Positions 1 to 57,856 of a stretch of DNA of 64,000 nucleotides are shown piece by piece. The DNA is from Chlorella sorokiniana (taxonomy: Eukaryota > Chlorophyta > Trebouxiophyceae > Chlorellales > Chlorellaceae), in NCBI GenBank assembly GCA_025917655.1, contig CP084609.1:310001-374000 (forward strand), in the 5' to 3' direction. Position 1 is the first letter of the stretch, and every line of letters starts with the position of its first letter. The position numbers and the translations under genes were made by a program. The notes beneath the pieces were generated by a model that saw only the letters and a program-made list of their open reading frames with translations, searched no databases and was not told the origin of the DNA.

Positions 1-607
1 CCTTGAACTTATGAAGAGCTGCAAACCACTTCGACAAACGCTCCTGCGCGTTAGCCTGCTGTTTGCCGCGAGTCACGTTCCAGGGCAAGAATGCCGTCAG
101 GCTCTCTGGAGGCTGTGAATTTGCTGTTGATCAGCCCGATGCGTCGCATTTAGACTAGAAAGGAAAACGTTTTGGCTTACAGTACGTACGTGTACCGCTG
201 CGTTTGCCTTGCCCGTGGATCGCAGGCGCCAAGCCAATTGGCGGTTGCGACTCAAGCCGTATTCATCTGACGGACTGTCTAGAGAAACTCACGAACGGCT
301 CCCATTTTTCAGTCTTCAGCCAAGAGGCACAGTTTCCTGCAGCAACTGCTGCAAGCAGGCTCCAGGTAGGAGAACGCAGCAATAAGTCATAGGCATCGGT
401 GGCAGCAGCGCGCTGCATGCATGATTCCTTGATGCCTGCCCTGCTTGTGCTTGCCGCCGCTTGTTGCTGCCGAACTGCTTTGTTGTCTTTCCAACTCGTA
501 GCTCTCTCGACGGGTATCATGCCACAATATAATTAGTTGCCATGAATCCATGCACGAGACAAAGTTACCATGCCACTGCGCAGGCTTCCGCACATAGGCA
601 GCCAGCC
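1..607. other. Upstream region, no gene seen
   Basis: No reading frame here has recognisable protein content; the short frames are chance openings. The last part would be the 5' leader and promoter of the adenine phosphoribosyltransferase gene. An alternative in-frame ATG for that gene lies at 542. Confidence 0.5.
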
Positions 608-1792: not shown

Positions 1793-2321
1793 TTTACCCA
1801 TGATCAGTTCATTATAAAACTGCTTTGTGTGAGCAGAGGGGCTGTGACTTGCATGATGATGCGCCTGCAGAGGGCCTGCGTGGGTGATGCTCGGCACGCA
1901 GGACGCCCAGCGGGACAGTGGTTTGCAACATGGACGAGGGTGGCTTGAACGGGGCGCAGGGGCGGCTGCACTTGCCACAAGCGTACAGAGCAGCTAGAAC
2001 AGTCTGTTTGCAGGCGTCATCGTGCAGCCCGACTTGCTCTGGTTGGGCCAGGGTGCACAGCAGCCCCTACCTGCGGCAGTTTGCATGTTAGTTTACTGAA
2101 AACACTCTTACGGCACCAACGACAGCGCCAGAGACGGCACTTCGCTGCCGCCGCAACCTTCTGCCGAAAACAGAGCAGCGGCAGTTGCCGGCGCAGGGTG
2201 CAAGGCGCGCCACGTTGCAGAAGATAGCAACTCAACTCAACCGAACGACCGAGGGGGCTGCCGTGCCTGCAGCCAGGAGCAGGCGGTCAGCGGTCGCCAA
2301 GCAGCGCGTCGGGGCTGCGCT
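1793..2321. other. Intergenic
   Basis: Spacer between two genes on the same strand. It should hold the 3' UTR of the phosphoribosyltransferase gene and the 5' region of the MPN-domain gene. No recognisable coding or RNA signal was seen. Confidence 0.5.
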
Positions 2322-7496: not shown

Positions 7497-7575
7497 CGGC
7501 TGAAGCACGCCAGCCTGGCACCATGCAAGCACTGTCTGTCCATGCACTGTGAATAAGCGCATCAAGTTAACTGTG

Positions 7576-7580
7576 TTACA
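7576..7580 (-). terminator. TGTAA polyadenylation motif of the L1-domain gene
   Basis: TTACA on the + strand, which is TGTAA on the minus strand, the usual chlorophyte polyadenylation signal. It lies about 170 bases past the stop codon of the minus-strand ribosomal-L1-domain gene. Confidence 0.45.
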
Positions 7581-7747
7581 AGCTCGTCAGGCCACAGGCT
7601 CTGCATCACACCTCCGCATCGTCCAGCTTGGCCTGTACTGCCAAGCCACAAAATACTACACAGGCGTGCTGGTCTCAAGCACCTCTCCACTAAGAGTCGG
7701 CGCTGGGGTGGGCCGTGCTGGCTGTCAAGAGGGTCGTCGTCGGTGCT

Positions 7748-9766
7748 TCAGTCCTTGGAGATGCGGGCAGGCGCCTCGGGCAGCACCTGGTAAATGGGCA
7801 GCGCCACGCTGTCCGACGTTTTGAGGAAGAGCGCCTGCGGATGCGGCGGCGGCAAACGGATTACGGATAAGAGGGGCGGGTTCGAGGACGAGCCCAGCTG
7901 CTCAGCAAGCGGCACGAGCAAACTGCTCCGCGATGGGCAGGTGCACATGTACCTCCACAGGGAGACATGCAAGCGGCAGGTCAGGCCAGAGACCTTCACA
8001 AGCAATGCATCCCACACCCCACTGCAGCAAACTATCCCGCATGCGGCAAGCAGTTCCGTTCCCACCTGCACGCCGTCCCACTTGCGCGGCACTTTCTCGA
8101 CCGCTGCCGCTACTGCCGCCAGCACGTTCTCCACGCCCTGCTGCTCGCTCTGCGACGACCGCGCCACTTTGATTGTCAAGCTGTTGCCGCCTGCACAGGG
8201 CGAAGCAGGGCACGGCAGCTTGTGGAGGGGGCCGGGGGGGGGGGGAGGGGGCGCAATGCCGAACATTCCGGCTGGGTTATTGTGCATGGCAGGAGCCGTC
8301 TGTGCGAATTCAGCGACCCACACAGCAGCACCTCAGCAGGTTAAGGGGGCCCCTGGGCCAAGGAGCAGCGTCAGGCTGACCAGTCGGTCTGGCGGAGCTG
8401 CAGGACAGCGCAGCTGGCGATGCTCACCGGACCAGAAGAGGTACGTTGCTTCGCAGGCCTTGCGTATCTGCCCCGCCCAGTCCTTGCCCGTCAGCCGCAC
8501 CGGCACCGGCTGCTTCTTCCGCTTGAAGAACGACTTGCCTGCAAAGATCAGACGGGATGGGGGCAACGACGGGGAGAATGAGGTTGGCAAGGCGCTTGTA
8601 ATTTTTGTTTCCTGGTTGCACCTCAAAAGAGCTTTCAGACGTGACAGTCATACAGCAGTGTTCCTCCCTGCCGCAGCCCGCCCCATGCCCCCGCCCCACC
8701 CCGCCGCACCTAGCAGCTTGGGCAGCGAGGGCAGCACGCGCTCGTCTGCCACAAAGAGGTCGTAGCTTCCGCACAGCTGCCGCTTGGCCTCGTGGCTCTC
8801 GTACTTGCTGCGCAGCTTGCTGAGCCCCACGACCTTGGCGATGCCCGTGCTGCGCTCCTCCCGCGCCCGCGCCTTGGCCGCCTTGTGCCCCTCCCCTGCA
8901 GCGAGCAGCGGGGCAGGCCGCAAATAATGGCCAGGTGCAGCATGCAGGGGGCCGAGGGTAACCAACCCCAGTCTTATACTCTTTGCGGCACAACAGAAGC
9001 AGCGGTGCTGACGGGCCATGTGCGCCGCTGCTCGGGCGCCGGCGCCCGCAGAACCGCCCCGCTGGCGCTGCACAATGGATCTCCGCAGCGCTGCCAGCAA
9101 GCGGTGCAAGCCGCACAGCGAGAGCAGGCCTGCCGCGTCGCTGCAAGCCCACCCTTGTGGTCCTTCACAAACAGGCAAATCTCCGCATCTTCCGTGGAGT
9201 AAATGGGGTGGGGGATGGGGATGCGGATGGGCCGGTCCTTGCGCGGCGTCTGCGGCACCTTCTTCAACGCTATCACCTGCGGAAAGGGAGGCGCGGCTGC
9301 CATGTGGGCAGAGTGCAGCATGCCAGGCAGCATTGAAGCAGCCTGCAAGCGCCTTGGGAAGCAAGCAGTGGCAGGTGGCAGGACTGGCGGCGGAAGTGGC
9401 AGCGGAAGGGCGGCGGTGCTGAGGGCGCTTGTGCGCGAGAATTCGGGCTATTGACATGTGCAAAGAACATGCAAGCCACGGCAAGGCCGCTGCAAAGTCT
9501 GCGCCGCCACTAGAGAGCAGTAAGAGGGACTCCTCAAACGGCGCATGCATGTCCGCTGTAGTCTATATGACTATGAAGAAGCTAGGGGCGAACGCAAAGC
9601 CGTCTCGCCACCCCACAGACGAGCCATTCCCGCATGCAGCTGCAAGGCGCACCAGGTACAATAGTTCGTCCTCTTCCAACAAATTATTGCTGTCTCTATC
9701 GCCGACAAACTTTAGTAGCGCCGCCACAGCTTTGCGTGTCTGCTCCTCGCTGACTTTGTTTGCCAT
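7748..9766 (-). CDS. Ribosomal L1 domain-containing nucleolar protein (RSL1D1/Utp30 type)
   Basis: About six exons running from ATG 9766 to the stop at 7748. The N-terminus is MANKVSEEQTRKAVAALLKF. Later exons give VIALKKVPQTPRKDRPIRIP, then YDLFVADERVLPSLPKLLG, FFKRKKQPVPVRLTG, GGNSLTIKVARSSQ, EKVPRKWDGVQ, and a final exon LKTSDSVALPIYQVLPEAP. These match the conserved blocks of eukaryotic RSL1D1/UTP30/CIC1 proteins, L1-fold proteins that bind pre-rRNA in the nucleolus during ribosome assembly. The family often has a long basic C-terminal tail. Here the protein stops soon after the L1 fold, at about 240 residues, like the short Utp30 form. It is tail-to-tail with the MPN gene, with about 250 bases between the stops. 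Confidence 0.9.
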
Positions 9767-10267
9767 GGCTGAAAACAGAAGTGGGAGGACGGGAAGGGGA
9801 GCGGATTAGAAGTCGGAACCAGCAGAGAGCAACGAAACGTATTGCCCGCAAAACCCGGTATTGCTTTCCACCAGGATGCCGCCGCCACAGCCTGTAACGT
9901 GTCGCCCAACTGGGATTACCCTGAGCCAGCTACACGTACACTAGTGTTACTTGGAAGCTTGTTGGTTCGGCAATGATCATCAAAACATTGGGACGTAAAA
10001 TGCACCGGCAGCATGCTGGCATTAAATGTCGAGGGGAGCAAAACTAGCGGCGGCGCCGCGGCTGGTATATGTGCGGCGAGAATGGGCAGCAGCGGGAGCA
10101 ACAGAAACAGGTTGGTTCATTGGCTTCATTGAAAAATCGTCAGTGGGCGGACGGGGGCTGGAGCGGGAGGCGGAGACATGCGTGGCAGCACGGCGCTTGA
10201 AGGGGAGCCTATCCGGTGTTGCTGGAAGGCCTCCTGGGCCGCCCGCGGAGGGAGGGGACGGCCCCCA
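9767..10267. other. Intergenic, 5' region of the L1-domain gene
   Basis: Upstream of the L1-domain gene and downstream of POR, both on the minus strand. Moderately GC-rich; no coding signal or RNA gene was seen. Confidence 0.5.
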
Positions 10268-12438
10268 TCAAGCCAGGCCCACCAGCTTCAGGCTGAGGTC
10301 GTACAGCTTGGCGCCCTTGGCGTCGTTGCTGGCCTCCTCCGACAGCGTGTTCTCCAGCGCCGAGTCGCCCACCGAGTCGAACCACAGGGACGACTTGTCG
10401 TTGTCCCAGGACCAGTAGACGCCGCTCTTGTTGAGGGCGGGGTCGGAGACCACCTGCGCCAGGCGGCGCCCGGCCTCCGCCTCGCTCACGTACCCCTTGG
10501 TCACAAACTTCTGGAAGGGCGGGAAGAGGGTGCGGAAGAGGGGGATGTGGTTGCGGAACAGGCCCGTCTCCGCGATGCAGCCTGCGGGGGAGGAAGGAGG
10601 GGGAGGGAGGGAGGCAGAATGCAGGATGTCAGCACAGCGTGCAGTCGCCGCTGAGCCAGGCCACACCTGCCTGCTGTCTGTGCACAAAACACACAGCGCA
10701 GGCGGAGCCGGCTGAAGGGCACCAGCACCAGCAAGGCAGCCGCTGCATATGGCACGGGGCAGCCTGGGGCGGTACGCACCGGGGTACAGCGTGGCGAAGG
10801 TGACGCCGGTGGACTCGTGCAGGCGCTGGTGCAGCTGGCGCATGGTCAGCATGTTGCAGACCTGCCATCCAGTTGAGGGGGGAGGAGGGGGGTCAGGTCA
10901 AGGAGTGCTGCTAGACAAGCGTTCCTGGGGAGGGCAAAAGACGTCCCGAGGTTCCGGTCCAAGGCAACAACTTGAAATTCAACTGGGAGGGGGTGCCCCC
11001 TTTGCGTAACAGGCAGGGCGCCGACTGCCGCAAGCGGTCGCAGGCCAGCGGCGGCAGCGTCCACCTTGGAGTCCTTGTACGCCTTGGCGCCGTCAAACTC
11101 GCCGCCGTTGATCATGGAGGAGTTGCGGCCATCCAGGCCGCTGGTCAGGCCGCGCAGGTCGCCCAGGTCTGCCTGCAGGGAGGAAAGAAAGCGAAAGAGA
11201 AGTGACGAGGGGCGTGCAGGGGAAGGGGGACTCTGCCAAGTGGAAAACAAAAGCCGGGAGGGGGCCCGGCCCGGGAAGACTTGGCAGCGCAGCCTGCGGC
11301 CTGGCCTGCAAGCTGTCCCCGTCCCCGCTTGCCTTGGGGGCACGTTGCCGGCCAGGGTGTTGGTGTTGCCGGTGATGGAGCCGACGATGATGCAGCGGGG
11401 GCGCCGGCGGGGTTGTTGGAGGGCGCCTGCTTCAGGTCCTCCAGCAGCAGGTGCACCAGCAGGAAGTGGCCCAGGTGGTTGGTGCTGCGCCAGGGGAGGG
11501 GGCGGAGGCGAGGGGGAGGAGGGGCGTGAGCGGAGCTGGCAAGGCGTGTGCGGGTGTGTTGGGGGGGGCGGGGGCGGCAGTGGTGTGTGTGTGGGGAGGG
11601 GTGCTGGGCACAGACTGGCGCACACAGGGGTTGGGCAGCAGGGAGGGACAGCAGTCGGGGGGGGCACTAAGCGTGACAGCAGGCTCTTTCATCGCCCTCA
11701 CCCCACGGACAGCTCGAATCCGTCGGCGGTGAAGGTGGGCTCCTTGGCGGTGGGCAGGTAGACGGCGGCGTTGGCCACGAGGGCGTCCAGGCGGCGCCCG
11801 CTGTTCTTGAAGTTGGCCACAAACTGGCGCACCGACTCGAGGGAGGCGAGGTCGAGGTGCATGACGGTGTAGTTGCCCTTGGGCATGCCCAGCCGCTGCG
11901 CCGCGCGCTCCGCCTTGGCGAAGTCGCGGCAGGCCATGATGACGTGCCAGTCGCCCGACTGAGCCAGCGAGTTGGCGGCGTTCAGGCCGAGGCCGGACGA
12001 GGCGCCTGCGCGGGGGGGGGTGGGTGGGGGGGGTTAGGGGGTGGGGGGGGGGTTAGGGGAAATGGTTGATGGGGCGTTGAGTTACAGCAAGAGGCGAGTA
12101 CAGGGACGTGTAGGGGCGTGCAGCTGCATGCCAAGCTTGGGGTGCGGTAGGCTGACGGAGGCGAGGCGCAGCACCCACCGGTGATCACCACGGTCGGCTT
12201 CTGCAGGCTCTTCTCCTCATCAGCCAGGGCCTTGGGCTTGACGGAGCCCACAGCAGGGGCCGGGGGCCGCCACCGCGCGCACCGCCACGCTGGGCCGCGG
12301 CGCGGAGCTGCGCTTGGCGGCTGCTGCGGCGACCGCCGCCCGCAGCGGCGCGAGCTGTGCGGCGCGCCGGGCGGCGGCGGTGGGGGCGGCCACGCCCGCG
12401 GCAGCGGCCTGGCGGGTTGCGGAGGCGACGGGGGCCAT
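10268..12438 (-). CDS. POR: Light-dependent protochlorophyllide oxidoreductase, plastid-targeted
   Basis: Reduces protochlorophyllide to chlorophyllide with NADPH in a light-driven step of chlorophyll synthesis. ATG 12438 opens an Ala/Arg-rich plastid transit peptide, followed by KPTVVITG and, in the next exon, the rest of the Rossmann glycine motif. Further blocks are [17 protein letters not shown], the [13 protein letters not shown] region, [51 protein letters not shown], and the catalytic Tyr/Lys pair in KAYKDSKV. The C-terminal exon carries [15 protein letters not shown] and [14 protein letters not shown] and ends SLKLVGLA. Two one-base frame changes are visible: an extra C in a C run before VGSVKPK (near 12265), and a missing base between NPAGAP and RCIIVGS (near 11403). 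Both sit in C/G runs, so the gene is probably intact. Tandem GATAAG motifs lie upstream. Confidence 0.96.
12012..12058 (+). repeat. G-tract cluster in first POR intron
   Basis: Runs of four or more G broken by T or TTA, so C-rich in the POR transcript. The spacing fits a G-quadruplex on the non-coding strand. It is low-complexity and prone to miscalled length. Confidence 0.5.
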
Positions 12439-13500
12439 CTGCAAGAAGGTGGAGTGCGGGAGCTGTGAGCTCTTGGGTTTGCGGAGGCCTATAGACTGGG
12501 GAGTGCGGCACGTGGTATGCTGAAAAGCAGCGGACTGGTTCTCACCTTGATGTGGTATGCAACGCAAACCGAGTTTGCTGAAAGACAGTGCTCGGGACGC
12601 TGTTCGGGGAGCTGATAAGGAGCTGATAAGCTTTCTACCTGGGCTCCCAAGCAAGAAGCGATATCGCCGATTTGGGGGCGATATCGAAGGCTTCGGATCT
12701 GCATAGAACTTCATCCATAGCCATCAATTATCACGAAGATTTCTAGCACGTTACACGCCGCTTCTGTTGCCATGCCCTGCCACTGCCGCTGCCTGCTGCC
12801 GCCGCCTGCCGCCGCCGCCTGTGCCGCCAGCCGAGAAACCGTCTTGAATATTTCGTGCTTGCCTCGTAGTATGATGTCCTCCCCAACCTGCGGCATAGCA
12901 GCGCCATGCACATGTATCAGCTGTCAGCTGTCGTGGGCAGCACTATAAGAGGCGCGATTGTCATAGTCCTTGCAGGCAGCAACCCGTGCTGCTAGTCCCT
13001 GCGTCCCTTTGTTGTAGAGCGACCAAAATATAAGAGTGTTGCAATGTTGTTGCTTACAAGCTTTCTTGCAAGAGCAAGTGTTCCTAACGGAGCAAAGTTC
13101 CATTACTGCTGCATTCCACCCCGCTGTTGCAGACTTACCCTGGTGGACAGAATAGCATCAATGAAAAATGCTCTGCAATGGTTAAATTGCAGGCACCTGA
13201 AGCAAGTATGCTTGTGCCCTCCTACAAACCATTGCTGCCTGCTGGTGACAGGATACATGTACCAGTGGTGACAGGATGTTCGACGCCCGTTGGGTGGGCG
13301 AGCACATTCCCAAACCATTCCCATGGAATGTCATGGCTGATGCAAATTACAGTTCTGCAGCGTTGACTGTACAATCGACTCTCATTGCCGTGAGAGAATG
13401 AGCAGCTGTAGCAGGTACACAGAGCGGTACACAAGGTCAGTGGAGACCCTCAGGCCCCACTCACACTTCTAGGCGTCACACACGCCCACGGGCAGGCAGC
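12439..13500. other. Divergent intergenic region between POR and the transporter
   Basis: Shared upstream region of POR (-) and the MFS transporter (+). Besides the GATAAG pair it has a short inverted repeat, CGATATCGCC at 12659-12668 and its complement at 12677-12686. A 66-codon minus frame at 12711-12911 is not convincing. No other gene was recognised. Confidence 0.5.
12614..12630 (-). promoter_or_regulatory. Tandem GATAAG (I-box-like) motifs upstream of POR
   Basis: The unit GAGCTGATAAG occurs twice back to back (GATAAG at 12614-12619 and 12625-12630), about 180 bases upstream of the POR start codon. GATAAG is the I-box core seen in plant light-regulated promoters. A role in POR light control is inference. 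Confidence 0.4.
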
Positions 13501-16500
13501 ATGGCGGGCAGCGAAGAGTTGATATTGCCGCCGGGCTGCAAAGATGCGAAACTGGCGCTGCTGTTCGTGTCTGTGCTCGGGGAATTCATGCAAGGTGAGT
13601 TTGATCAGATCGGCTCCCGCTTATATACCGTGCCGCTCGCATAACCACCACCCCCATTTTGTTGCACGCGCCTCCCGGGCCCCCCTCCAGGCGGGCTGTT
13701 CTTCGGCTGGCCATCACTCTCCGGCATGTTGCAGCAGCTAGGCAACTATTCAGATGGCTGCCCGACGGAGGGTGAGACCGATCAGATGGCGACTGCCGCT
13801 GCCGCGCCCGCACGTTACGTCTGCTCAGATCCCGCCCGCTGCGCCTGTGCAGGCAAGTGCCAGTCGCAGGAGGCCAGTCTAGCGCTGCTGTGGACGCTGG
13901 GCATCTTCACGTTGAACTGCGGCCCGGTGGTCATGGGCTTTGTGCTCGACTTTCTGGGGCCCAAGCTGACTGGCATCCTTGGTGGGAGCCCCGCCTGGCC
14001 TGATGGCTTTATGCTGTGCATACGTGTCGGAAATTGACAGTCGCCAAAGCATCACACATGGAGCCGTTTCTGCCGAATGCGGCCAGCGCGTGCCGTGCCA
14101 CGCTGCATGGGAGTTGGACGGGCCCCCACCGCGCCTTTGTGGATTGCCCCGCAGGCGTCTCGCTTAACATGATCGCGCTGGTGCTCTTCGGCGTCTCCTC
14201 CTCCAGCGGCGTCAACGCCTTCATCCCCGCCGCCATCCTGTTGGGCCTGGGCAACATCACGTTCCACCTGGCCCAGTTCCACATCTCGGCCCTCTACCCC
14301 CGTTCCCGAGGCCTGGTGGCCTCCATCTTCGTGGCGGGCTTCACCGGCTGCGGCATCGTCATGTACCTGCTCATGCTGGTGTTTGACGCGGCGGGTGGCA
14401 CGCAGTGAGCAGGGAGCACAGGGGGGAAGTATGCTGCTGCTATGAGTTGGTGGTGTAGGTCGGGTTTCAGCAGAAGCGGAGGCAGCTACGCAGTGTGGTG
14501 CAGGGCAGCGCTGTAGGCAGCTGAAGCGGCTTTGTGGGGGCAGAGCCAGCGCTGCCACGGCAGCAGGTTCACGTCTGCGGTACGCATCGCCCCGCAGGGC
14601 GGCGTATCGCACCATCATGCTCTCCTACGCCGGCATCTGCTCGCTGTGGATCCCGCTGCTGGCATGGATGATGCCGGGCCACTCCTTCCGCGTGGGTATG
14701 CTCTATCTCATGCGCAAGGACTGGACGTTTGAAGTGCGGCTGCGCAACGGTGGGCTCACGCGCGGGCGCCGGGGTGGTGGTGCTGGCCGGGCGCTTGGCG
14801 CGCGTGTGGATGCTCGTTTGTGCTATGTGCGTTTTTGTGTTCACAACATCGATCCATTCTAGTCTGGTCCTATCACATCTTCAGACTCCTCCCCTGGCCA
14901 CGTACACACTCACACACATACACTCCCCATTCCCCAACCCCCACCTTCTTGCAGAGTTTGCGGTGCACTATCGTCGCACGACCTCGCTGCAGGACTTTGT
15001 GGCTGCCTCGTCGCTAAGCCAGGCCAACGGCGGCAGGCGAGCCCTCCTTTTGCTTGGCTGTATTGGCGGTTTGTTGTGTGCAGGAGCGGTCGCGGCCCTG
15101 CTGGTGGCTGCTGTGACTGCAGATCAGCTCGCAAGAAGATGTCCTGGCTGCGCAGCATTGTCACGACGCTGAACTGCGCCAACTGCTGTTGCAGGACGGG
15201 GCTGCACAGTCGCGGCGGCATGGTAGCAGCAGCAGGCAACACGGTGCCCCACGCGGGACCTGTGCGGTCGCCAGACAACCAGCTGGCATCGTGAGTTGGC
15301 TGCTGCATGCATAGGGAGCCCAACCCACATGATATGATGCTTGCTGCTGCTGCTGCTGGAGAGCCTACCGTTATACCGTGTCGACCCCTCCGTGATGCTG
15401 GATTTGACAAGGAGGGACACGCCATATTGATCCTTTGCAGGCCTGTGCAGAGCCTTTCTCAGACGCAGCTCAGCAACGGCGGCGAGTACGAGCAGGACAG
15501 CATGGCGGGGCAGCTGCCACAGGTGTGGTCGCCAATCAAACCTTGCCTCCCCTGCTGCTGCCACCGCGGCGTTGCTTCAGTCCGCGGCCTGGTGCAGCGT
15601 AGCTGTCGATTGACGCTGACAATTGACGATGCGGCCTCTCGGCCTGTGCCTGTGCTGCACCAGCCACTCATGCACCTCCCGACTATCCGTTGCCACCCGG
15701 TGCAGGACATCTCTTGGGGCCCGCTGGTCTTCGAGGCGCGGCGCTTTGTGGAGCTGCGCAAGAAGACGTTTTCAGGTGTGCAGCAGCCCTGGGCAGACCA
15801 CGCACCTGTTTGGTTGCCTGCACAAGCTCCTGACCTCATCAAGCAGCTCGGGATTGCATCCCGCCTGCTGCGCTCGTCGTGCCCTTCACAAGCACTGCAT
15901 CCTGCTCTCTTGCTCGCCCGCAGAGCAGTTTTGGTCCTCCGAGGCGCTCGGCATGGGCATCTTCTACACCCTCAACGTCTTCATCATGCAGTTCTATCTG
16001 GGTGGGTTTTCTGGGGTCGTGGTTGACAGGTGTTTTGTGCTGCCTGAAAATCAGCACCACACGCTGTACCTCCTCCCATGTGCACGCTGTCCCAGTGGGA
16101 TGGGCGGAGGCGTAGGGCGCGAGCCTTGGCCTGCCGCAGTGCCTGCCCTGGCCAGCTCCCCTGGTCCCTCTGGCCACACAGCGCGAGCACACACGTGCGT
16201 CCTGCAGGCACCACGCGGTCGCAGCTGGCGGACAAGGGGGATAAAGGGGCGTACACCGACTTTGCCAACATCGTGGTGGCCTTTGCCTTCCTGGGCATAC
16301 CTGTCATTGGCTGGCTGCTGGACAAGAAGGTGTGGGGGGGGCTGGGTTGCGAGCCTTTGGATGGAGTGATGCAGCTTTGTGCGGGCACGTTGGCGGTCGG
16401 CACTTGCATGCATGCCCGCACCTCGCTATGCCGTTTGATTGGCGAACAGAGTGGACACCCGTGCTTGTGTGCGTGTCCCCGATCTTGTCCCTGCAGGGCT

Positions 16501-17481
16501 ATGGCATCACGCTGGGAGCCATCAACGGCCTCAACGTGCTGTCCAGCATCCTGCAGGCCATCCCCAACCTGCAGGTGCAGGTGCTGACGCTGCTGACCTG
16601 GATGGTCTCCCGCTTCTTCATGTACTCCAGGTGCAATTCGAGCGCTGCTGCTGCCGCGTTGCTGTATATATCATCTATTATAATCAGATCTGGCATCATC
16701 TGGCTGATCGGCCCTTGTGTGGGGTGGAGGGTCAGCTGCTGGCGCGGCCACCACTGCGGGACACGAGCGCTGCGGCTGCGGCGTTGGCCGCCCTGCCAAG
16801 AAGAGTTGGGGTTGCAGTCGTGAACCACTGTGCTGCACGTCCCTGACATGCCCTGCTGCAGTTACTTTGCCATCTTCGGCAACCTCTTTGGCTTCAAGAA
16901 CTTTGGCAAGCTCGTGGCGGCGGACAACATTTTCAACAGTCTGTTTGGCCTGTTACAGGTGGGTCAGAAAGGCAGCTGGTGGGTCTCAAGTTGCGTTGAT
17001 GCAGGACAAACACTTCACGACACAGCCCGCATTGCGACCTTTGAAAGCATCTCACCCATACGCCGCCCCCACCTCCACACACACACCCCCCCCCCACACC
17101 CGCAGTACCCGCTGGCGTACCTCGGCCTGCACCACGGCTTCACCTGGATCAACGTGGGCCAGGCAGTGGTGCTGCTGCCCCTCTTCTTCTTCTCCTATTA
17201 CATGTTCCGTTGGGAGAACTCAGACTTGGTACCCATACGGTGAGCGCGCGGCTGGGGGGCTCAGAACTGAGGCAGGGCCGGTGTGTGAATGGGGTCGGGG
17301 AGAGATACCAGAGCTTAAGCACGTGTCACAAGCGGTGGCATGGTGGCTGCGCTGACACCTGGGTCACTTTCAGGCGTTGACTGCACAGGGCCTCATTGGT
17401 TGACTGAGCAACGCTTGCAATGCCCAACTTCCATGCAGGCCCATGGAAGGAGAAGAGCTGGAAGTCAGAATGTACTACTGA
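13501..17481 (+). CDS. MFS transporter, SLC43/FMP42-like
   Basis: Starts MAGSEELILPPG and has about 14 exons, each coding one or two hydrophobic segments: ALLFVSVLGEFMQ, then GGLFFGWPSL, TLNCGPVVMGFVLDFLG, SLNMIALVLFGVSSSSG, FIPAAILLGLGNITFHLAQ, RGLVASIFVAGFTGCG, GMGIFYTLNVFIMQF, VVAFAFLGIPVIGWLLDKK, ITLGAINGLNVLSSILQAIP, FTWINVGQAVVLLPLFFFSYY. The N-terminal half, the loop after the sixth helix and the C-terminal half match the SLC43 (LAT3/LAT4) and yeast FMP42 branch of the major facilitator superfamily. Animal members carry neutral amino acids; the substrate here cannot be read. The last exon begins at 17439 and gives PMEGEELEVRMYY before the stop. The exons from about 16.4 kb onward are repeated downstream. 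Confidence 0.85.
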
Positions 17482-17520
17482 AAAGAGAGTGGAATGTTAT
17501 ACGATTGCCTGTTGTAAAAT
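16373..17520 (+). repeat. Source block of a duplicated transporter 3' end (copy A)
   Basis: The last four exons and intervening introns, plus the start of the 3' flank. They match 19065-20281 and, for the terminal part only, about 26610-26830. The protein-coding exons match almost exactly while the introns have drifted. Confidence 0.85.
17513..17517 (+). terminator. TGTAA polyadenylation motif of the transporter gene
   Basis: TGTAA 32 bases after the stop. A TGTAA also follows the last-exon homology in both downstream copies (20277-20281 and 26811-26815). Confidence 0.5.
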
Positions 17521-17739
17521 CCCAATACCAGAGCCAAATTGCACACAGGTCAGACACAACCTTTGCAGACACAACCGAGGGGCTTGACATCACTTTGGCA
17601 CACACCGTCGTCCTTGTCAAGTTGTTGTGCATGGTCAGTGATGCATTCCAGCAGTTGCTGTAGAGGCTCTGACATCATCTTCTTTGGGATCTTAGATTAA
17701 AACCGCCATTCAAGGCGTCGCTATCCCAACAAAATGGGG

Positions 17740-18100
17740 CTAGAAGCACGTACCAGCCTGCTGAACTACTGAGAGACTGCCACAGTCAACTATGCACACA
17801 GTCAACTGCTGAGAGACTGCCACATTTTTTAGCATGAACTCTATGGCGGGGTGAAACCTGTGAGTTGGAATACCCAGGTCATTTACGTTGTCAGCAGCAA
17901 GCCATGTCACAGGTTTTGGATGAAACCTTTTATTGGCAAGGTCCCTAAATACCATGAAGGTATCCCACGCATCATCCGGCCACTTATCGTCTTTTTAATA
18001 GCGCGGGCACGTTTGGCTTGTTTTAAAGGCTCTTCGTTCAAGACATCGAAGAGGGCAGCCACATCCTTGGCTGCCGAATAACCTGTTCCGCGTAATGTTC
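17740..18100 (-). pseudogene. Unrecognised minus-strand coding remnant
   Basis: Read on the minus strand, this piece gives protein-like sequence: SAAKDVAALFDVLNEEPLKQ, then, after one frame change, KWPDDAWDTFMVFRDLANKR, and HPKPVTWLAADNVNDLG followed by THRFHPAIEFMLKN. Composition and codon use look like real coding DNA, but I do not recognise the family and see no start. It may be an exon or decayed element caught between the transporter copies. Confidence 0.3.
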
Positions 18101-18529
18101 CCGAACTTCTGTTGCTGCTTGTCTAAGGTGGATCAATGGGAGTGAGGAGAGGGAGACGTTGGAGGAGGGGCAGGGGGAGGAAGGGGGAGGTGCAAGTGTG
18201 GGTGCGCCTGGCGTGAATGCCTGCCACCCACAGCAGCATGCCGCAAGCGGGCAGCGATGTATGCACAGGCCTTGTGGCACAGGCCTGCAGCTGGGTTGTC
18301 GCTCGCCCAACCAGCTCCCGCCTCGCAACCATCCCTTCCGCAGGGTCGGTCGTCGCGCAGGTCGTCGGGCAGGGTCGCAAGGTCGCAACTTTACAGCAAC
18401 GGGCCGGGTGCTGTGCAACCAGGCCGGGTGGCAACAGAGGCCTAACCGGAAGGGTTGGACGGGCGTGGGCACGGCGGAACCGGCCAACGCTGCCTGTCGG
18501 CGTCTCGGCGTATGGCGTCTCGGCATGCA

Positions 18530-19045
18530 GCGGCGGCGCGCGAGGACACAGCGTCGCCACTGCTTGGGGGCGCGGATCCAGCGCGACACGGTCAGCGGGT
18601 GGGCGATGCGCCTCGTGGCGACGAGGGACAGCCGCGTCCACGCCCCTCCTATGCCACTGGCGAAGACGATGTCGGTCGCCACGATGCGCCCGACCTTGAC
18701 CGCCATGCACATGTTCAACGTGGTCTGGAGCTTCTGGGTGCACAGCCTGCGGAGACGAAACGGTAGTCCGTGGCGTCCGTGTACTCGGCGGTGGACAAGC
18801 GACGGATGACTACGGGCTGGGCTCTCCAATCCAGGCACTGGGGGATGGCCTTGAACGTCTTCCATGGCACTATTTCGTCGCCACTCGCGGGTGCGCGTGG
18901 CAGAAACCACGCAGACTCGAACGTGCGCACCCTGCCCGCGGGACCTACCATCCCAGTAGGCCGTGAAAGCAGGCTGAAAAAGCTCAGGCGTTTTCCAGAA
19001 ATGCGGCTGACCAGATCACAAGTAGGTGCCAAGTAGGCGATACAC
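18530..19045 (-). pseudogene. Unrecognised minus-strand coding remnant
   Basis: The minus strand gives RVRTFESAWFLPRAP, SGDEIVPWKTFKAIPQCLDW, then VVIRRLSTAEYTDATDYRF, and in a shifted frame QTTLNMCMAVKVGRIVATDI followed by VFASGIGGAWTRLSLVATRR. It reads like protein, with one frame change near 18740. The family is unknown. It could belong to the same minus-strand gene as the 17740-18100 piece; the stretch between them is Arg-rich and unconvincing. Confidence 0.3.
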
Positions 19046-19064
19046 GTAGTCATGTGCGGGCGCT

Positions 19065-20236
19065 TTGTGCGGGCGCTTTGGCGGTTGGCACCCGCATGCA
19101 TGCCCGCAACTGGTTATGCCTTTGAGTGAGGAACAGAATGGAAACCTGTGCTTGTGTCTCCGTCCCCCGATCTTGTCCCTGCAGGGCTATGGCATCACGC
19201 TGGGAGCCATCAACGGCCTCAACGTGCTGTCCAGCATCCTGCAGGCCATCCCCAACCTGCAGGTGCAGGTGCTGACGCTGCTGACCTGGATGGTCTCCCG
19301 CTTCTTCATGTACTCCAGGTGCAGCTCTCGAGCGCTGCTGCCGCAGCTGCTCAACTTCTTGGTGCAGCTCTCGAGCGTTGCCGCCGCACTGCGCAATGTT
19401 TGGTGCAGCTCAAGGCGCTGCTGCCGCACTGCCCAGTGGTTGACCTGGTGCAATCAGATCTGGCATCATTAGGACCTGATCGGTCCTTGTGTGGGGTGGA
19501 GGGTCAGCTGCTGGCGCGGCCACCACTGCGGGACACGAGCGCTGCGGCTGCGGCGTTGGCCGCCCTGCCAGGAGGATGTGGGGGTTGCAAATCGTGAACC
19601 ACCGCCCTGCACGTCCCTGACATGCCCTGCTGCAGCTACTTTGCCATCTTCGGCAACCTCTTTGGCTTCAAGAACTTTGGCAAGCTCGTGGCGGCGGACA
19701 ACATTTTCAACAGTCTCTTTGGCCTGTTACAGGTGGGTCGGAAGGGCAGCTGGTGGACCTTATTATGCATTAATTGCAGAACAGCAATGCACGACACAGC
19801 CTGCACTGCGATGTTTCAAAAGCATCACTTCCCTATGCCGCCCCCACCTCCAACCCCCCCCACCCGCAGTACCCGCTTGCGTACCTCGGCCTGCACCACG
19901 GCTTCACCTGGATCAACGTGGGCCAGGCAGTGGTGCTGCTGCCCCTCTTCTTCTTCTCCTACTACATGTTCTGTTGGGAGAACTCGGACCTGGTGCCCAT
20001 ACGGTGAGCGTGCGGCTGGGGGGCTCAGAACTGGGGCAGGGAGCCGGGGAGGGGCAAAGACATCGGAGCGAAAACGCGTGTTGCGCAGGTGCTGACTTGG
20101 CTACGCTCACAGCTGGGTCAGCTGCGGGCTGTAGATGCACAGGGCCTCTTTGGCTGACTGAGTGATTGTTACAACTGCTCGACTTCCATGCAGGCCCATG
20201 GAGGGAGAAGAGCTGGAAGTTAGAATGTACTATTGA
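19065..20236 (+). pseudogene. Partial 3' copy of the SLC43-like transporter (copy B)
   Basis: Repeats the last four exons of the upstream transporter: ITLGAINGLNVLSSILQAIP, NLFGFKNFGKLVAADNIFNS, FTWINVGQAVVLLPLFFFSYY, and the last exon ending EELEVRMYY with a stop at 20234-20236. The exon sequences are nearly identical to copy A. Introns differ, and the first has expanded through short CTC/GCTG repeats. No 5' exons are present, so it cannot encode a full transporter. A TGTAA motif follows at 20277. Conserved splice sites and exons suggest a fairly recent tandem duplication. Confidence 0.85.
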
Positions 20237-21046: not shown

Positions 21047-24000
21047 ATGGACTTTGACGTTGGTCAGGTGCGATTCACGGCTTTTGCTGCAGTTCCTGGT
21101 TAACCTCTGACGCATGCATCTCTCTTATGAAGCCACTCAATTGCCTTGCCGCAGGCGGGGCCTGAGCCCTTTCAAACTGTTACAAAGTCTGCTTTTGTGT
21201 GGTTGAATACGAATAATGTTCGATACAGTGTTGAGGCCTACCAGCGGGGCTACGAATGGAACGAAGTGCAGGCTGAAAGGTAAATATCTGCGTTGCCTTT
21301 TGTGATTATACCCATGGTTGTGGGACTGTGTGCTTATGAATGGTTGAATTCCCTGCTTGTGTTCCCTCCGTGGCATCAACGTGGTATAGATTGCTGAACT
21401 CAATCCTCAAGGTAGTGGAGCTGTCTGAAATAGGGAGTCAAGAGAGATCTGCGTTCTTAAAATTGGGTGAAGTTGTGCTCCTTTTGAAAGGGAGGGAAAG
21501 TCATATGCAGGCAAGACACTCGGCAATTTTGTTAGGGTGTGGACCGGGATATTCAGGGCCAACTCACCGATGAACATGTTGCATAAGATTGTTCTAAGAG
21601 CAAGCCATCCTTGATTTTGCAGGGAAATATCTGGGAAGGCCACAAGCTTGACGTGGAAATTGTGGATGGCCAGCAGCGATTAACCACGTTGCTGCTACTG
21701 CATGCAGTCTTGCAGTACCTTTTCTGTCGTGGCACAATGAAGCTCAGGGCAGAAGGCGTAGGTTGCTTTATGGTGGACAAAACCATTGAGATTGGTGAAG
21801 TGGAAAAAGCCATCGAGACACGATTCACTTTCAGATTTTTGGACGATACAAAGCTGCTAGTAACTTCTGAGAAGAAAGAACACGGCTTGGCTGAGTTCAC
21901 ATTCAGGAACCTGCAACGCCTGGATTATCTTATGAAACTTGACAAAGCAGATGGTTACTCGCGAGAAATCGATTGCGGTTTTTATCTGCAATTGGCTGAC
22001 TCAAAAGAACCCACATCTTCAATGCTTATTGAAGAGTCATAAGCCATCATCAACATCAACAACCCAACTAAAATTAGCCTTACATTCGCTGTATAAATTC
22101 TATAAAGGGATGAATTATCGTGTGCTATGGACCACCTCACTGACGCAGCATCGGCAGCTGGCACTGCACACTTTCTTGGCCCTCAACTGTGAAACTATGA
22201 GGGTGGCTCTGGCTACTCCCGATGTCATCAAGGTGGCGCTTGTTAGCGACCTGCGCGAGGTGAAACAACTTGTGATGTTGTTCAATTTGTGCCATAGCGT
22301 ATGATATCATGTGGTGTTCATGTTTTTCCTTCATGATGTGCAGAGACAAGCTGGGCCAGCCTTGGATGAATGGGAAAGCATTGAGAAAATGCTAAGTGAT
22401 GCGGCGTCGACCCTTTCAACAGAAGACACCCTGCAATGGCTGCAGCCAACCTTTGGTGCTTCGGCACCTTTAACCGGCAGTCGTTTGATGTTGGACTTCC
22501 TGCACCATGTTTGTGAACTGGATCCAAAGGTGTTCCAGGGCATCTTAATCTGCATATCGAGCAGTGATTCACTCACAGCACCCTATGAACCAATGAACCT
22601 TGATGTTGATTGCAGAGACGTCACAAACCGTCAACCACCACTAGCGAGCAGGCCTTGGTGCATTTCTATGCTGAGAAACGCAAGATGGATGGTGATGAAG
22701 ACCAATGGGATCCTGCAACTTATATCACAGTAGAGCTTCAGCCTTATGCCCGTGCCTATGCTACAATGCTCACACGGTGCTTGCACAGGACCCTCAACAG
22801 AAAAGAAAATAAAAACTCAACCATCCCACGATGTTGGCATTGGTGAACCTGCTTAGGTCTGCAGGCTGGCTCAAGCCTCCTGTGCGTAAACCTGCAGCTT
22901 GATTTACATCACCTCTAGGAAATGTTGTGTCTTGATTGCAGCATGCCGGATCAACTCTGGCGTCTATCTGCATTGCAAATAATTCACAAGTGCGAAGGTC
23001 AGCTGCTCCTTGACGATTCAACTGATCCTGACACATGCTGTCTTGTGTGTTAATAACGCTGCTGGGTAGCTGCCCTCTCCATTCCTGGTTTGGCATTGAA
23101 CTTGCAGGGTCACTTGAAGAATTGGAAAATGCCTTGACGTCTTTGGAATACCTGACTCTCAACCGAATGGTTAACAAATTCCAGAATGGCATGCGAACTG
23201 CTCTTCAGACGGAGTAAGGCTAGCCATCATTCTGTTCCAACACAAATTGTTGTTGGTGAAAACCACATTACAAAGTTCCACACCATACATGCAGTACCCA
23301 TTATATCAATATGCTTGACAAGATAGGGGAGTGGATGAGTTTACCCAGGACATTGCCAGTTCCAAGTACAAATCAATATTCTCTCTGATTTTCCTGACTG
23401 GATTCCGCTGAACCCTTGGCCATGAAGGACTCGCAACCCCTTTTTGTTGCAGAACAAGAGCTGGTTTGGAATTGTTAAAAACTTTATATTTTGCAGACGT
23501 TTACGGCAATTATCCAGGAGCAGCCCGTTCGCTGCTATTGCAGCTGGAGCACAGCATGGTGCCGGTAACAGGTCGCGGTCTGAATGCAAAGATGTCTTTG
23601 TGGACTGGTTCGATCTCTGTAGAACACATCTTGCCACAAGTGAATCATCGCAGTCTGCGCAGCAATTCCATTCACATAAATTTCATGTATATCTACTCTC
23701 GTTGTCGTTTGTTGACTGTGCAGGTGCTGAGAAAGGACTCCCGCGATAAGACGGTATTTGGTGGCATGCATAAGCCGCTGCTCCACAAAATGGGTAACCT
23801 AGCACTTCTCAACAGAAAGGATAACTCAGAGCTCAGCAACTTAGACTTTAAAGATAAGAAAGCAAAAATAATGTAAGTCACGCCTTTCCAGCCCCTGCGG
23901 CGGACCACTCTGGGGAAACGCCGGCCATATTTGAGCACCTGTGGAAATTTTACATCTGCAGAGAACTGAATACCAATAAATGCACTCGATTACTTGAAGA

Positions 24001-25972
24001 TATTGGTGATTCGTGGGATGTGGATGCCCTGTTGAAGCGTCATGAAAAGTTGATCAGACGGCTGGCGAAAAGGTGTGTGAACATCAGGTAGTGCCTTCAC
24101 AGGACTGAAAGGAAGGAGAAGCACATTGACGTGCTTGCCTGCATGTTGGTTGTGGCGGTCGGCGTCCCACTCCGTCCTCCTTTTGTTTTTGCACTTTCAG
24201 ACACGGCATTGAAGCTAATGTTCCAAGCGATCAATGGATCAAATGGCGCGGAGAGTTAGACTCCCGAGCCCGTCAGAGTACCCACGCGGCACGGGTTTTC
24301 CCGGCAGCACCAGAACCGCCAACAGATCCGCCAACACAAGCGCCAACGCAAACACCGGTACAAGCACCCCAGTCCTTGGGCGATGCAGCCCAAGAAGGTC
24401 TGAAGCCGCCCAATTCAGGACATGAATGTGAAAGGCTAGTAAGTGACACATCAGAGAGGCATGGTGTGGAGGCGGAGCAGCTGAATTCAACAGGTATAGT
24501 CTTGGATGGTGTGGCCGCTGATGATACAGCTCAAATCTGTTCAGATTCTTTTTTGGCAAAACCTTCCGGCACAAACACAGTAGGAGACACTTCAGACCGT
24601 CCCAACCAAAAGGATGTTGGCACCCAGGTCAGCTGCCATGGTTTACCAATTTCGCTGCTGTGTCTGCAGTGGCTGTGCCGTTGGAAACAAATCTGGCTAT
24701 GCAATTGCAGGAAGACGCTGGCAGCGCTTTGAAGGTGAGCGGTAAAAACATGAGGGCACACTTTCTGTCAGGAGCCTGCAAACCGTGATGACTGGGTGTC
24801 CTGCAAGTAACTGTGAATGCACATTTAAATTGCTGAAACTTGGGTGTATGTGTAGGACCCTCCACCAGAGGAACTCAATGTCTTGAACATCAAATTGATA
24901 GCCAAAACCGACAGTAAAGATGTGACAGGCAGCAAGAACAAGAACGCATTGACAGCCAGCAAACTCAAGAGAATACGCATCGCAGGTATGATTGACCTAA
25001 CCTTATTTGGTCTATCGCCACCCGTGCCTGCTTGATCAAGTCATACATATCATACATGTTCATGAGGTATTCACAATTGCCACCCAACAATGGCAAACGT
25101 TCTGCAGAAAAAGAGCTCAAGACAACGTTGAAATGGCAGCAGCAGGCCAACTCAAAGAGTCCCCCTCAATACAAAACGAACAGGGAGAAGTGGTTTTGAA
25201 GTTGGGCATATACAGCAACTACACATATTGCGTATTGGTGAGAAAGTGTGTGCCTTCCATAATGTCGCTGTGGTTCGGTCAGGTGCCTGCTTGGCATTAA
25301 CGTTGGTGCACCTATGCTCAGTATGAAACACCTCATTACCCAACCGTATAGGCCAAGGAATTGAACACGCTTTTGGAACGGTCGCACGCTGAAGTTGGAG
25401 ATTGCCTGCGTTTGCGCCACATTGACTCGTGCCCTAATGGTCAGACCATTCACGTGAAGGTGGAGCTGTGGCCACCACGGGGCGCACATCATGAGGCATC
25501 GAGCCAGTCGCTGCTGTTGCAAGATACTGAAAGGGATGAGGAACACAGGCAGCAGATGCAGGAGATGGATGTGGATGTGGATGAAGAGCCGGCTGCAGGC
25601 CATAGTGCCCCACCAGCCATCCCAACAGCGGCAGGAGATGCGCAAAACATGGATGATGCCATGCAGCCAGCAGGGTCACACTCGACTGAGCAACAGCACA
25701 ACAAGAAACGCAAGGTTCCTGCGGCTAGCCTCGACGCTCAGCAAATTGGTGACACAGCCGACGCGACTGCAAGGGCCTCGGGGCCAGGCGCACTAGGAAC
25801 TCGCATGCCAGTCCCTCAGCTGTTTTCGCAATTGCTGCAGCAGCATCCCACAGGCACGGCCACATCGTCAGAGGCTCTGCACCAGCTGCTTCGACAGAAT
25901 CCAGAGTTACGCAACACAGTTCCACAGTTCAATCATAATTGGTTTGCTCGGTTGGCCCCTCCTGGACCTTAA
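21047..25972 (+). CDS. Eukaryotic GmrSD/BrxU-like protein: DUF262 + DUF1524 (HNH) with a long tail
   Basis: Multi-exon gene. Early exons are 21047-21067, 21155-21279, 21390-21510 and one from 21623. The N-terminal DUF262 part shows VEAYQRGYEWNEVQAERLLN, FLKLGEVVLL and the hallmark VDGQQRLTTLLLL. A helical middle follows (LYKFYKGMN, LDEWESIEKML, EELENALTSLEYLTLNRMVN). The DUF1524 part has SVEHILPQ, MGNLALLNRKDNSELSNLDF and DSWDVDALLKRHEKLIRRL, keeping the His and Asn positions of its HNH fold. In bacteria this fusion (GmrSD, BrxU, SspE) is an NTP-driven nuclease that cuts modified phage DNA. The exons after about 24.2 kb encode a Pro/Thr-rich linker, an unrecognised segment with HAEVGDCLRLRHIDSC, and a Gln-rich tail with the nuclear-import motif KKRKV (25703-25717). 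One frame change was noticed. Introns argue against bacterial contamination; its lower GC hints at acquisition. Start and tail exons are uncertain. Confidence 0.75.
21511..21622 (+). other. Probable GC-AG intron in the GmrSD-like gene
   Basis: The exon ends CATATGCAG and is followed by GCAAGA rather than GT. The acceptor TTTTGCAG lies at the far end, and joining them restores the frame into the exon leading to the DGQQR motif. Reading through it would break the protein. Confidence 0.55.
25703..25717 (+). other. Monopartite nuclear-localisation motif in the tail
   Basis: Codons for KKRKV in the context HNKKRKVPA, the classical SV40-type pattern. It supports a nuclear site for the GmrSD-like protein but is only a short motif. 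Confidence 0.4.
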
Positions 25973-26609: not shown

Positions 26610-26830
26610 ACCGAGCGCGTGCCGCAAGCGGTGCGTTTGTGGCTACGCTCACAGCTGGGTCACCTGCAGGCATTGGCTGCATAGGGCCTCATTGCCTGAC
26701 TATTTGATCCTTGCAACTGCCCAACTTCCATGCAAGCCCATAAAAGGAGAACAGCTGGAAGTCCAGAATGAACTTCTTGACAGAGAGTGGAGTGTTGTGC
26801 AGTGGCCTGCTGTAAACTCCCGCAAGAATC
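26610..26830 (+). pseudogene. Last-exon fragment of the SLC43-like transporter (copy C)
   Basis: Matches the end of the last intron, the last exon and the 3' flank of copies A and B. Shared strings include GGCTACGCTCACAGCTGGGT, CAACTTCCATGCA, GAGCTGGAAGT-type sequence and GAGAGTGGA, plus the TGTAA at 26811-26815. It is more diverged than copy B: GAGGAG-type codons are altered and the terminal stop is lost. It lies on the far side of the GmrSD-like gene, so copies B and C bracket that gene. Confidence 0.7.
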
Positions 26831-27159: not shown

Positions 27160-29324
27160 CTACAAGAAGTAGGGCACCGCCGCCCGCGGCGCCATCATGT
27201 TGCTGTTCTCGTCAGTTTCCGTGAAATACTTCACTTCTCGCTCCAAGGACGAATCAAAGCAGAGCATGGAGGCCACGTTGCCGCAGCGGTAGCAGTAGTT
27301 GGGCGCAGACCAGACGGTCACAAGGGAGCGGTCCTGGAACATGTACTTCAGGCCCTCCTGCAGTACACGTCGGGCCAGGGGCAGCACAGGATGATAAGAG
27401 GGCGGCAGCAATCAAGCAAGGTTGGGCGCTTGGTTGTGCACCAATGAAATCTCGCTTGGCAGTCGTGCAAGGCTGAGGAGTGGGCCAATCTATGAGGAAG
27501 AGCAGCCATCGCACGCAGACTGCCCGCAAGGCCCAGCAAGGTGACTTCAATGTTGCCATGAAGAAACCAACAAACAGCCGCACCTGCACCAGCTGATGCG
27601 CACGGCAGATCAGCTCAAGCCCGTTGACGGCATTGAACTCCGCCGCCACCTTGCCCCCAAACAGCCAGCCTGCACGAAACATAAAATAAAGAAACAGCCA
27701 AGCTTAAAGTGCGGAACAAGCTAGAGAGGCAGCAAGAAACAAAGGGATTGCTGCAAAGCCAATCTTTTGTTGCACGTGCCAAGACGAGCAGAGCAGGTGC
27801 CTGCAGACGAAACACACCCAATTCCTCTGCCCACCACGCCAGCTTGCAGGCCAACTTAACTACAACAACTACCAGCCCAAGCGCAACCCACTGCACCCAC
27901 CTGCACCCCGCGGCGACACCGCCCAGCTCTCAATGTCCTCCGGGTCGCTCCACATCAAGTCGCAGAAGGGGCCCTCGTGAGGGATCTCACACACCCGGTC
28001 AATCATGCGCACCTGGAGGGTGCACAAGGAATACAGGAGCGGGAGTCAAGTATATTCTGCGCACCAGGTGCAGCTTGCACAGCGTCTTTTTACTTGACAG
28101 GACACTTCAACATATGATTGAATAATCAATTTCATCTTGCCTCAATGACTTGCTTGAATACAAGGAAGATAACCATGAAACTGAGACAACAAAGCGCACC
28201 TGGTCCAACGTGCGGACATCAGGAGACAAGCCGCCGTGCACGCACAGCACGCTGCCGTCAATCACCGCCTGCGACAGCAACGAAAGCAGCGGCGCAAAGT
28301 GGAACAAGGCGGGAAAGGGGTGCAGCAGCGAGGAGCAGAACCTGAAGCCAAGCTCCAGCGCTGGCCCAGCATCACAGCCGTGGTCCGGCCCCTTCCTAGC
28401 ATCAAGACTATAAAAAGTAGGCAGCTGCCCACCGATATCGTGAGGTAATCAAAGACTTCTGTGCAATACCGCCACGCGTTGGCGTTGCCGTACTTGCGTT
28501 GGCACTCGTCGTAAAAGCCGTACACCTGCAGTACAGGCAGGCAGTGCGGGTTGACGTGGTGTTCAACACCGCAGGTCCATAATAATGGCATGGAGACGGG
28601 GGTGAGGCCGAGGCATCAAAGCAGCACCACTGCTCGACTGTGCGCGCCCCACTCCCGGCCTCCCGCAAGCTTCAGCGGCAGCAGCGCGCGGCATGCGCGC
28701 CTGCGTGATCTGCCGGCTCTCGTGGTTGCCGCGCAGCAGGGTGACGTGGGCGGGGTAGGCCGCCTTGAGCAGCATCAGCAGCGTGAACACCTCCAGCGAG
28801 TTGTAGCCGCGGTCCACAAAGTCGCCCATGAATATGTAGGAGGTGGCGGGCACCTGGGGCAGCACACGCACAACACACAGGAGCAGGCTTTGGAAAACAG
28901 GCTTTGAGAAGCATTCAAGAGGTGGCGGTCACCTGGAGCACATACACACAGAACAGGAGCAGGTGCTGAGGAGCACGCAGGGCGTGGTTCTGCCTTTCCT
29001 GCCGCTGGCCGCCCGCTGCCTGGCCGCCCGGGTCGGCCCCCTCTGCTCCCTCTGAACAGGTGCACCTGGGCAGCTCACGCCCGGCAGCTTGCGTGCAGGT
29101 GCATACTGGCAAAGAACACGCACCTGGCCGCCGGTGTCAAAGAGCTTGAGCAGGTCGTGGAACTGGCCGTGGATGTCGCCGCAGACGGTGACTGGGGAGG
29201 AGACGGGCTGCACGCACGACTCCTCCACCAGAATCTCCTTGACCATGTCGCACAGCCGCCGCAGCTCCTCCTCGGTCAGGAACTCGCCGCCCTTGACCTT
29301 GGCGATGAGCGCCTCCAAGTCCAT
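27160..29324 (-). CDS. PP6: Serine/threonine protein phosphatase PP6 catalytic subunit
   Basis: ATG 29324 to the stop at 27160, six or seven exons. Starts [15 protein letters not shown]. All PPP-family metal and phosphate motifs are present in order: GDIHGQ (about residues 49-54), [27 protein letters not shown] and [11 protein letters not shown], ending AAVPYFL. It is PP6 (plant FyPP) rather than PP4, judging from [11 protein letters not shown], the [10 protein letters not shown] block, [10 protein letters not shown] and [11 protein letters not shown]. The final YFL is the carboxyl-methylated tail of PP2A-like enzymes. In plants this enzyme works with SAPS-type regulatory subunits and the PP2A A scaffold; a PP2A A gene lies 16 kb away. 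No frame break was noticed. It is head-to-head with IRE1, 535 bases apart. Confidence 0.95.
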
Positions 29325-53739: not shown

Positions 53740-53806
53740 AGCCCTCTAATATTCTTTTTTGTTAGGTTTGGATTTTAGTATAGAATGGTTTAATATGAAA
53801 ATATTA

Positions 53807-53890
53807 GTCGTTATAGTGAAATTGGTAGACACACAAGCTTGAGGGGTTTGGGGATATTACTCCATCCCGGTTCGAGTCCGGGTAACGGCA
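53807..53890 (+). tRNA. trnL-GAG: Plastid-type tRNA-Leu (anticodon GAG)
   Basis: 84 bases. The acceptor arms GTCGTTA and TAACGGC pair with G-T wobble. The anticodon stem is CAAGC/GTTTG around the loop TTGAGGG, giving anticodon GAG. A long variable arm and a T arm GGTTCGAGTCC fit a leucine tRNA. No intron. The second acceptor pair is weakened to T-G. Whether it is transcribed in the nucleus is unknown. Confidence 0.8.
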
Positions 53891-53961
53891 TAGTTAAAAT
53901 TTTTGGGGGTTGAACGACGTTTTATGTTCTTAACTCTATTACTGCACCATGATAAAAAATA

Positions 53962-54700
<739 letters not shown>

Positions 54701-55289: not shown

Positions 55290-57856
<2,567 letters not shown>

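Follow-up and report, generated by a model that had tools for sequence, protein, structure and literature searches.

The stretch of DNA analysed here, called the window, comprises 64,000 nucleotides of the green alga Chlorella sorokiniana (C8:310001-374000) and lies on a contig of 2.54 Mb, C8, in a genome of 38.8 Mb and 15 contigs. On its forward strand it carries an intron-rich gene, referred to below as the window gene, whose predicted protein belongs on strong grounds to GmrSD, a family of Type IV restriction enzymes. It is apparently a real and intact nuclear gene of the alga. Genes of this kind have been known from algae since 2015 (Machnicka et al. 2015, PMC4619093), and the window gene is a variant of them that has diverged and carries a tail. 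That study places GmrSD homologues in Chlorophyta, Bacillariophyta and Heterolobosea, with eukaryotes accounting for 3 of its 613 fully sequenced organisms, and an alignment legend lists Chlorella variabilis, Coccomyxa subellipsoidea and Thalassiosira oceanica. With these reported proteins and a second GmrSD gene in the same genome, the gene noticed in an earlier sequence-only reading of the locus is not a first case.

The spliced model predicts a protein of about 1022 amino acids (1021-1023, depending on one acceptor). Sixteen of the introns are GT-AG and one is GC-AG, with sizes of 81-165 nt, and one open frame runs throughout; no indel correction is needed for it to run from end to end. The exons were first joined by hand, and the final model is the one with the best splice consensus, judged by eye, among the aligner settings. 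It is least certain at its beginning, in the start codon and exon 1 (21 nt), and at the weak donor of 21954. With splice consensus at all 17 introns and one open frame, the spliced eukaryotic structure claimed earlier appears sound.

Table 1. Coordinates of the window gene, its parts and its flanking features (positions in the window)
Feature	Position	Strand	Remarks
Whole gene	21047..25972	+	18 exons, 17 introns, no internal stop; stop TAA 25970-25972
Exons 2-5, GmrSD_N (DUF262) domain	21155..22259	+	Pfam match = residues 27-235; YQRGYEW, DGQQR, FLALN motifs
Apparent GC-AG intron	21511..21622	+	CAG/GCAAGA ... TTGCAG/GG
Intron with weak donor GTTACT	21954..22077	+	alternative donor GTTTTT at 21978, same phase (by hand)
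Middle region, exons 6-10	22344..23330	+	22344-22529, 22616-22776, 22942-22997, 23108-23213, 23295-23330
Exons 11-13, GmrSD_C (DUF1524, HNH-like nuclease) domain	23453..24072	+	EHILPQ, GNLALLNRKDN, NLDFKDKK
Exons 14-18, C-terminal tail	24201..25972	+	412 aa after residue 610; KKRK at residue 934
123-nt direct repeat, left copy	20098..20220	+	82% identical to 26640-26762
123-nt direct repeat, right copy	26640..26762	+	gene flanked by both copies
Exon, neighbouring PP2A-type phosphatase gene	27163..27411	-	E 1.8e-9 to PP2A catalytic subunits

The GC-AG intron noticed in the sequence-only reading is likely, the GC donor having been chosen in 4 of 4 end-to-end aligner runs on the gene despite a penalty on such donors. 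Use of either of two GT donors in the right phase, at 21472 and 21475, would remove the conserved strand VVLL. For the acceptor, the aligner put 21646, and 21622 is preferred by consensus. Further downstream, one aligner setting took an intron at 21758-21950 instead of 21954-22077. The settings differ at 21758-22077 and 22406-22730, so that exons 4-7 are less sure.

Two frame breaks were considered and dropped. The first, at about 22777-22941, arose when the segment LALVNLLRSAGWLKPP (~22815-22881) was read as coding, which would split the gene; the aligner matches the following exon instead (LTRMPDQLWRLSALQIIHKC to LNRLPNSDWLPPLLAFYDKF) and treats the segment as intron. This part of intron 7 resembles the family motif L..LN.L...W.PP, though the adjacent exon supplies that motif. 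The second lay in the tail at 25108 and was once ascribed to assembly error. The acceptor that looks strongest at this point leads into the wrong frame, and a listing of phase-compatible sites showed that donor 24985 keeps the frame with any of three CAG acceptors, which place the start of exon 17 at 25140, 25143 or 25146.

Domain profiles and motifs

The Pfam profiles PF03235 (GmrSD_N, DUF262) and PF07510 (GmrSD_C, DUF1524) match the unspliced locus exon by exon in six-frame searches of the whole genome (E 1.6e-5 and 5.9e-7). In a spliced draft without the 36-nt exon 10, the first scores 62.4 bits (8.5e-17; Pfam cut-off 33.2) and the second, C-terminal to it, 54.4 bits (1.6e-14; cut-off 23). 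The family relationship suspected in the sequence-only reading is borne out by these two scores. The four motifs on which that reading was built, QRGYEW, DGQQRLTTL, EHILPQ and GNLALLN, do occur in the order given, starting at residues 37, 104, 499 and 528 of the spliced model.

From the motif list in PMC4619093, YQR is present at residues 36-38, VDGQQR at 103-108 and FLALN at 232-236. The motif (E/D)H(I/L/V)xPQ appears as EHILPQ (499-504) and NxxFxxKK as NLDFKDKK (543-550). For L(G/A)NLxLLxxxN the protein has MGNLALLNRKDN, in which M replaces the first L and the last N comes one residue later than published; this spacing is shared by the relatives aligned, in which N538 does not vary. The weak fourth motif, Wxxxx(I/L/V)xxRxxxLxxxxxx(I/L/V)W, is present in its first part from W572 (WDVDALLKRHEKL) and lacks the closing (I/L/V)W. 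Invariant columns of a 15-row alignment include E499, H500, P503, N529, N538, K549 and W572, together with DGQQR at 104-108.

An intron-aware aligner was supplied with a profile from alignment A1, which holds 46 of the 89 relatives of the core draft. When it was forced to span the profile through lower gap and intron penalties, columns 22-560 of 564 were covered with no frameshift, at 153.2, 153.2, 162.7 and 175.8 bits in four settings. In the first of these the gene reached 153 bits, against -57 or less in 48 controls, for which the gene's reverse strand, both strands of other window parts and 15 block shuffles of the gene were used. The diverged middle alone (21954-23460) gave 2.8 bits, against -13.7 or less in 56 controls.

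The core draft found its 89 relatives among 8000 protein candidates scored, and the whole draft found 73 among 7999, in a search that would miss unannotated or very long genes. Most of the relatives are nameless, and those named with an organism are all bacterial or archaeal. The top matches of the core draft have 35% identity over 20% of the core, or 23-25% over 85-91%. To look for a giant-virus source, IMG/VR viral contigs were scanned once with one pattern (alignment A2); of the 53 stretches that matched, 25 held relatives, with identities of 20-35%.

Compared with GmrSD as described by Machnicka et al. 2015 (PMC4619093), the protein has the same fused DUF262-DUF1524 order and the elements QR, DGQQR, FxxxN, EHILPQ, GNL..LL and NxxFxxKK. 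It differs in its 17 introns, its 412-residue tail and an altered LN-x-RG, and the relatives aligned have 21-26% identity to its core. The likeness to BrxU and SspE proposed in the sequence-only reading comes down to the shared family domains and a sequence match to SspE, and no closer tie than to plain GmrSD was found. SspE acts with phosphorothioate modification genes and senses that modification, and BrxU is tied to BREX and carried in a BREX defence island. In PADLOC, where 30 families matched, the best among the 25 listed were Orf5 (7.7e-23) and HEC-06 (3.8e-22), with SspE somewhat weaker (4.6e-20). By sequence, the draft matched four distinct PDB sequences up to E 1, including a DUF262 protein, 20yv/20yw (20yv 5.4e-7), and SspE (6jiv, 4.5e-4; also 7drs), the chains of which have 771 residues against about 1022 in the window protein. 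Only with the bacterial profile A1 were PDB 9jfl, 7dri and 7p9k reached, the last of which is presumably BrxU. NCBIfam matched 0 of 3 proteins, 2 of these being relatives, and is thus uninformative.

A second GmrSD gene and the origin of the window gene

In the six-frame genome searches, PF03235 and PF07510 gave two matches each, in the same two genes; these searches scored the best candidates only, and further divergent copies could escape. One of the two is the window gene. The other, copy 2, is a more canonical GmrSD gene with introns at about C8:647.9-651.3 kb (647.5-651.3 kb in a wider span), ~0.31 Mb away, and scores 256 bits in the same intron-aware aligner. A genome search with exon 18 (196 residues) and residues 1-784 returned the window gene itself only, which is consistent with a gene that is without a close second copy. 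Copies as divergent as copy 2 would be missed by this search, because copy 2 itself escaped the window-protein query.

When copy 2 was used as the query, 5 of 24 matches were algal: three from Micractinium tetrahymenae (52-68% identity over parts), one from M. conductrix (43%) and one from Chlorella vulgaris (36%). Copy 2, C. vulgaris D9Q98_007838, the M. conductrix protein and M. tetrahymenae ABPG75_000158/168/169 have the same two domains as the window gene, with one GmrSD domain in each M. tetrahymenae model. The reading of copy 2 stops soon after DUF1524, where the window gene adds its tail. Two of the copy-2-type algal proteins (P0093 and P0098) have basic, alanine-rich, leader-like N-termini that look by eye like organelle presequences, and the window gene as modelled is without any.

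The M. conductrix protein (P0092) is annotated as 60S L30 and carries both GmrSD domains; two adjacent genes were probably merged by the annotation. The three M. tetrahymenae models (P0090, P0091 and P0098) are numbered 158, 169 and 168, which suggests several neighbouring genes of the copy-2 type; the longest contig given for all three has one and the same length. Copy 2 is adjoined by an aldolase gene and, by eye, an apparent ketoacyl synthase gene. In the aldolase gene, which is of chloroplast type, three-frame translations examined by eye reveal that the frame breaks three times, at short repeats or homopolymers, in sequence that is otherwise well conserved; its joined reading scores 466.6 bits to a chloroplast aldolase. 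The breaks are probably assembly indels; a pseudogene is possible, as there are other aldolase genes in the genome.

A tree was built from 53 rows: the window gene, copy 2, 3 of the 5 algal matches and 48 of 179 other proteins. Rows longer than 680 residues were cut to 600, and the first 110 residues of P0092 were removed. Here the window gene groups with the four algal rows of the copy-2 type at a support of 94/87, an arrangement found in 97% of 200 bootstrap trees, and its end branch (3.79 changes per column) is the longest in the tree. A placement with 29 bacterial rows, a group defined after the tree was seen, is 2.56 log units worse and is not rejected by the approximately unbiased test (p-AU 0.142). 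Eleven introns per gene were also compared, with a rough gene model for copy 2, and none had a common profile column and phase.

One origin or two would both be compatible with the tree and p-AU, and the choice stays open. That the window gene is a divergent duplicate of copy 2 falls just short of an even chance. A single old bacterial transfer would have been followed by duplication, gain of the tail and fast change, in keeping with the position of both genes on one contig and with the joint grouping of the five algal rows. This account has to contend with a joining branch that is not starred, with the long end branch and the unrejected bacterial placement, and with the lack of both common intron positions and a match to copy 2 by the window-protein query.

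A second, separate transfer, from bacteria or via a virus with introns and tail gained later, is a tentative alternative that may well be wrong. It draws on p-AU, on the absence of common intron positions and on base composition: the gene region has 48.6% GC, against 62.9% in window 1-20000 and 61.7% in 27500-64000, and the GC content at third codon positions (GC3) is 0.51. Low GC, which in the introns is 46%, can equally mark a fast-evolving region, and there is no close donor, since both the top protein matches and the 25 viral loci are distant.

The tail and the probable function

For the 412-residue tail, searches of Pfam, protein sequences and the PDB yielded neither a family nor a related protein, an earlier version of the tail being the query in Pfam and PDB. 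With the genome search also returning nothing beyond the gene itself, the claim of a tail without relatives stands. PHROGs returned three weak matches, none of them with a known function. A plant B3 domain was considered and rejected: no B3 was among the Pfam matches up to E 10, and the PDB matches were at E 0.066 or worse, to unrelated lyases. In the genome no B3 domain was found, in a search whose controls gave no signal either. In its pattern, the basic KKRK stretch is similar to a nuclear-import signal.

Bacteria employ enzymes of this kind against viruses. In bacterial GmrSD, the DGQQR motif has been proposed for nucleoside triphosphate (NTP) binding and an E/D-H-N-N motif for DNA cleavage (PMC4619093), and the Eco94GmrSD variants D507A, H508A and N522A lose activity, as cited there. 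The counterpart residues are kept in the window protein as E499, H500, N529 and N538 (own matching), and because of this it is likely that the protein cuts DNA. A dependence on modification and a role in defence would follow by analogy with the bacterial systems.

The chances are about even that the window gene encodes a GmrSD-family DNA nuclease that evolves fast, probably works and has a role in guarding against foreign DNA. In bacterial relatives, the N-terminal DUF262 domain is assumed to bind NTP and to contribute to the recognition of modified DNA. The C-terminal DUF1524, of HNH type, would cut DNA, probably with a foreign modification pattern. The cell could thereby be guarded against foreign DNA such as that of algal viruses, and the tail with its nuclear-import-like stretch may control the place or time of action. 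An arms race or a change of task would fit the rapid divergence of the sequence. If active, the protein would represent a DNA nuclease of a eukaryote that descends from bacterial restriction enzymes and perhaps depends on modification, and it would be testable whether green algae turn such machinery on viruses with modified DNA. In titles and abstract openings, a literature search gave no account of eukaryotic GmrSD function, and no wider claim is made.

Several observations weigh against a working guard nuclease. Left unforced, the aligner matched profile columns 423-560 only, the nuclease end (100.9 bits). Following FxxxN, the LN-x-RG that shows little or no variation in 46 relatives is altered to LNCETMRV; it is not among the published motifs, and its change is a sign of divergence, not a test of membership. 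The IPxYQR motif lacks its P, and no W follows EHILPQ. Because of these three changes, the protein may differ in its use of NTP or in its substrate. Among the candidates scored there was no algal relative of the window gene, in a database that does hold algal proteins, copy 2 having found its algal kin there. A nuclear modification-dependent nuclease must also spare the alga's own modified DNA.

It is rather unlikely, yet to be weighed, that the fold has been kept while the protein took on a different role, for instance in DNA repair, recombination or gene regulation. The new tail, the altered LN-x-RG and the long branch would suit such a change, and the unchanged nuclease and DGQQR motifs speak against it. 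A more elaborate form of the guard nuclease, with two GmrSD-type enzymes in separate compartments, is improbable. Copy 2, conserved and of a group with organelle-type leaders, would act in one of them. The fast-evolving window protein, with its new tail and nuclear-import-like signal, would give the nucleus an innate defence against viral DNA that bears a foreign modification, and the tail would keep it off host DNA. Little credence is due to a decaying relic or a wrong assembly, suggested by the weak donor at 21954, by the motif look-alike in intron 7 and by possible assembly indels such as those in the aldolase gene, given an end-to-end in-frame route, intact catalytic residues and a place within a 2.5-Mb contig. 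A long-dead gene is unlikely because the ~1022-codon open frame and standard splice sites persist despite a branch of 3.79, an argument limited by a model that was chosen to avoid stops.

Flanks of the gene

The claim that the gene lies between algal genes is supported on the right, where the neighbour is eukaryotic (a PP2A-type phosphatase). At a threshold of 0.001, Pfam matched neither the phosphatase exon nor four open reading frames of the left side. The direct repeat that flanks the gene has a third copy at window 17344-17481; it is ~120-140 nt long, with 3 copies within 10 kb, and a whole-genome search gave no further copies elsewhere. A second low-GC stretch lies at window 53001-64000 (41-56% GC per kb), with a tRNA-Leu at 53807.

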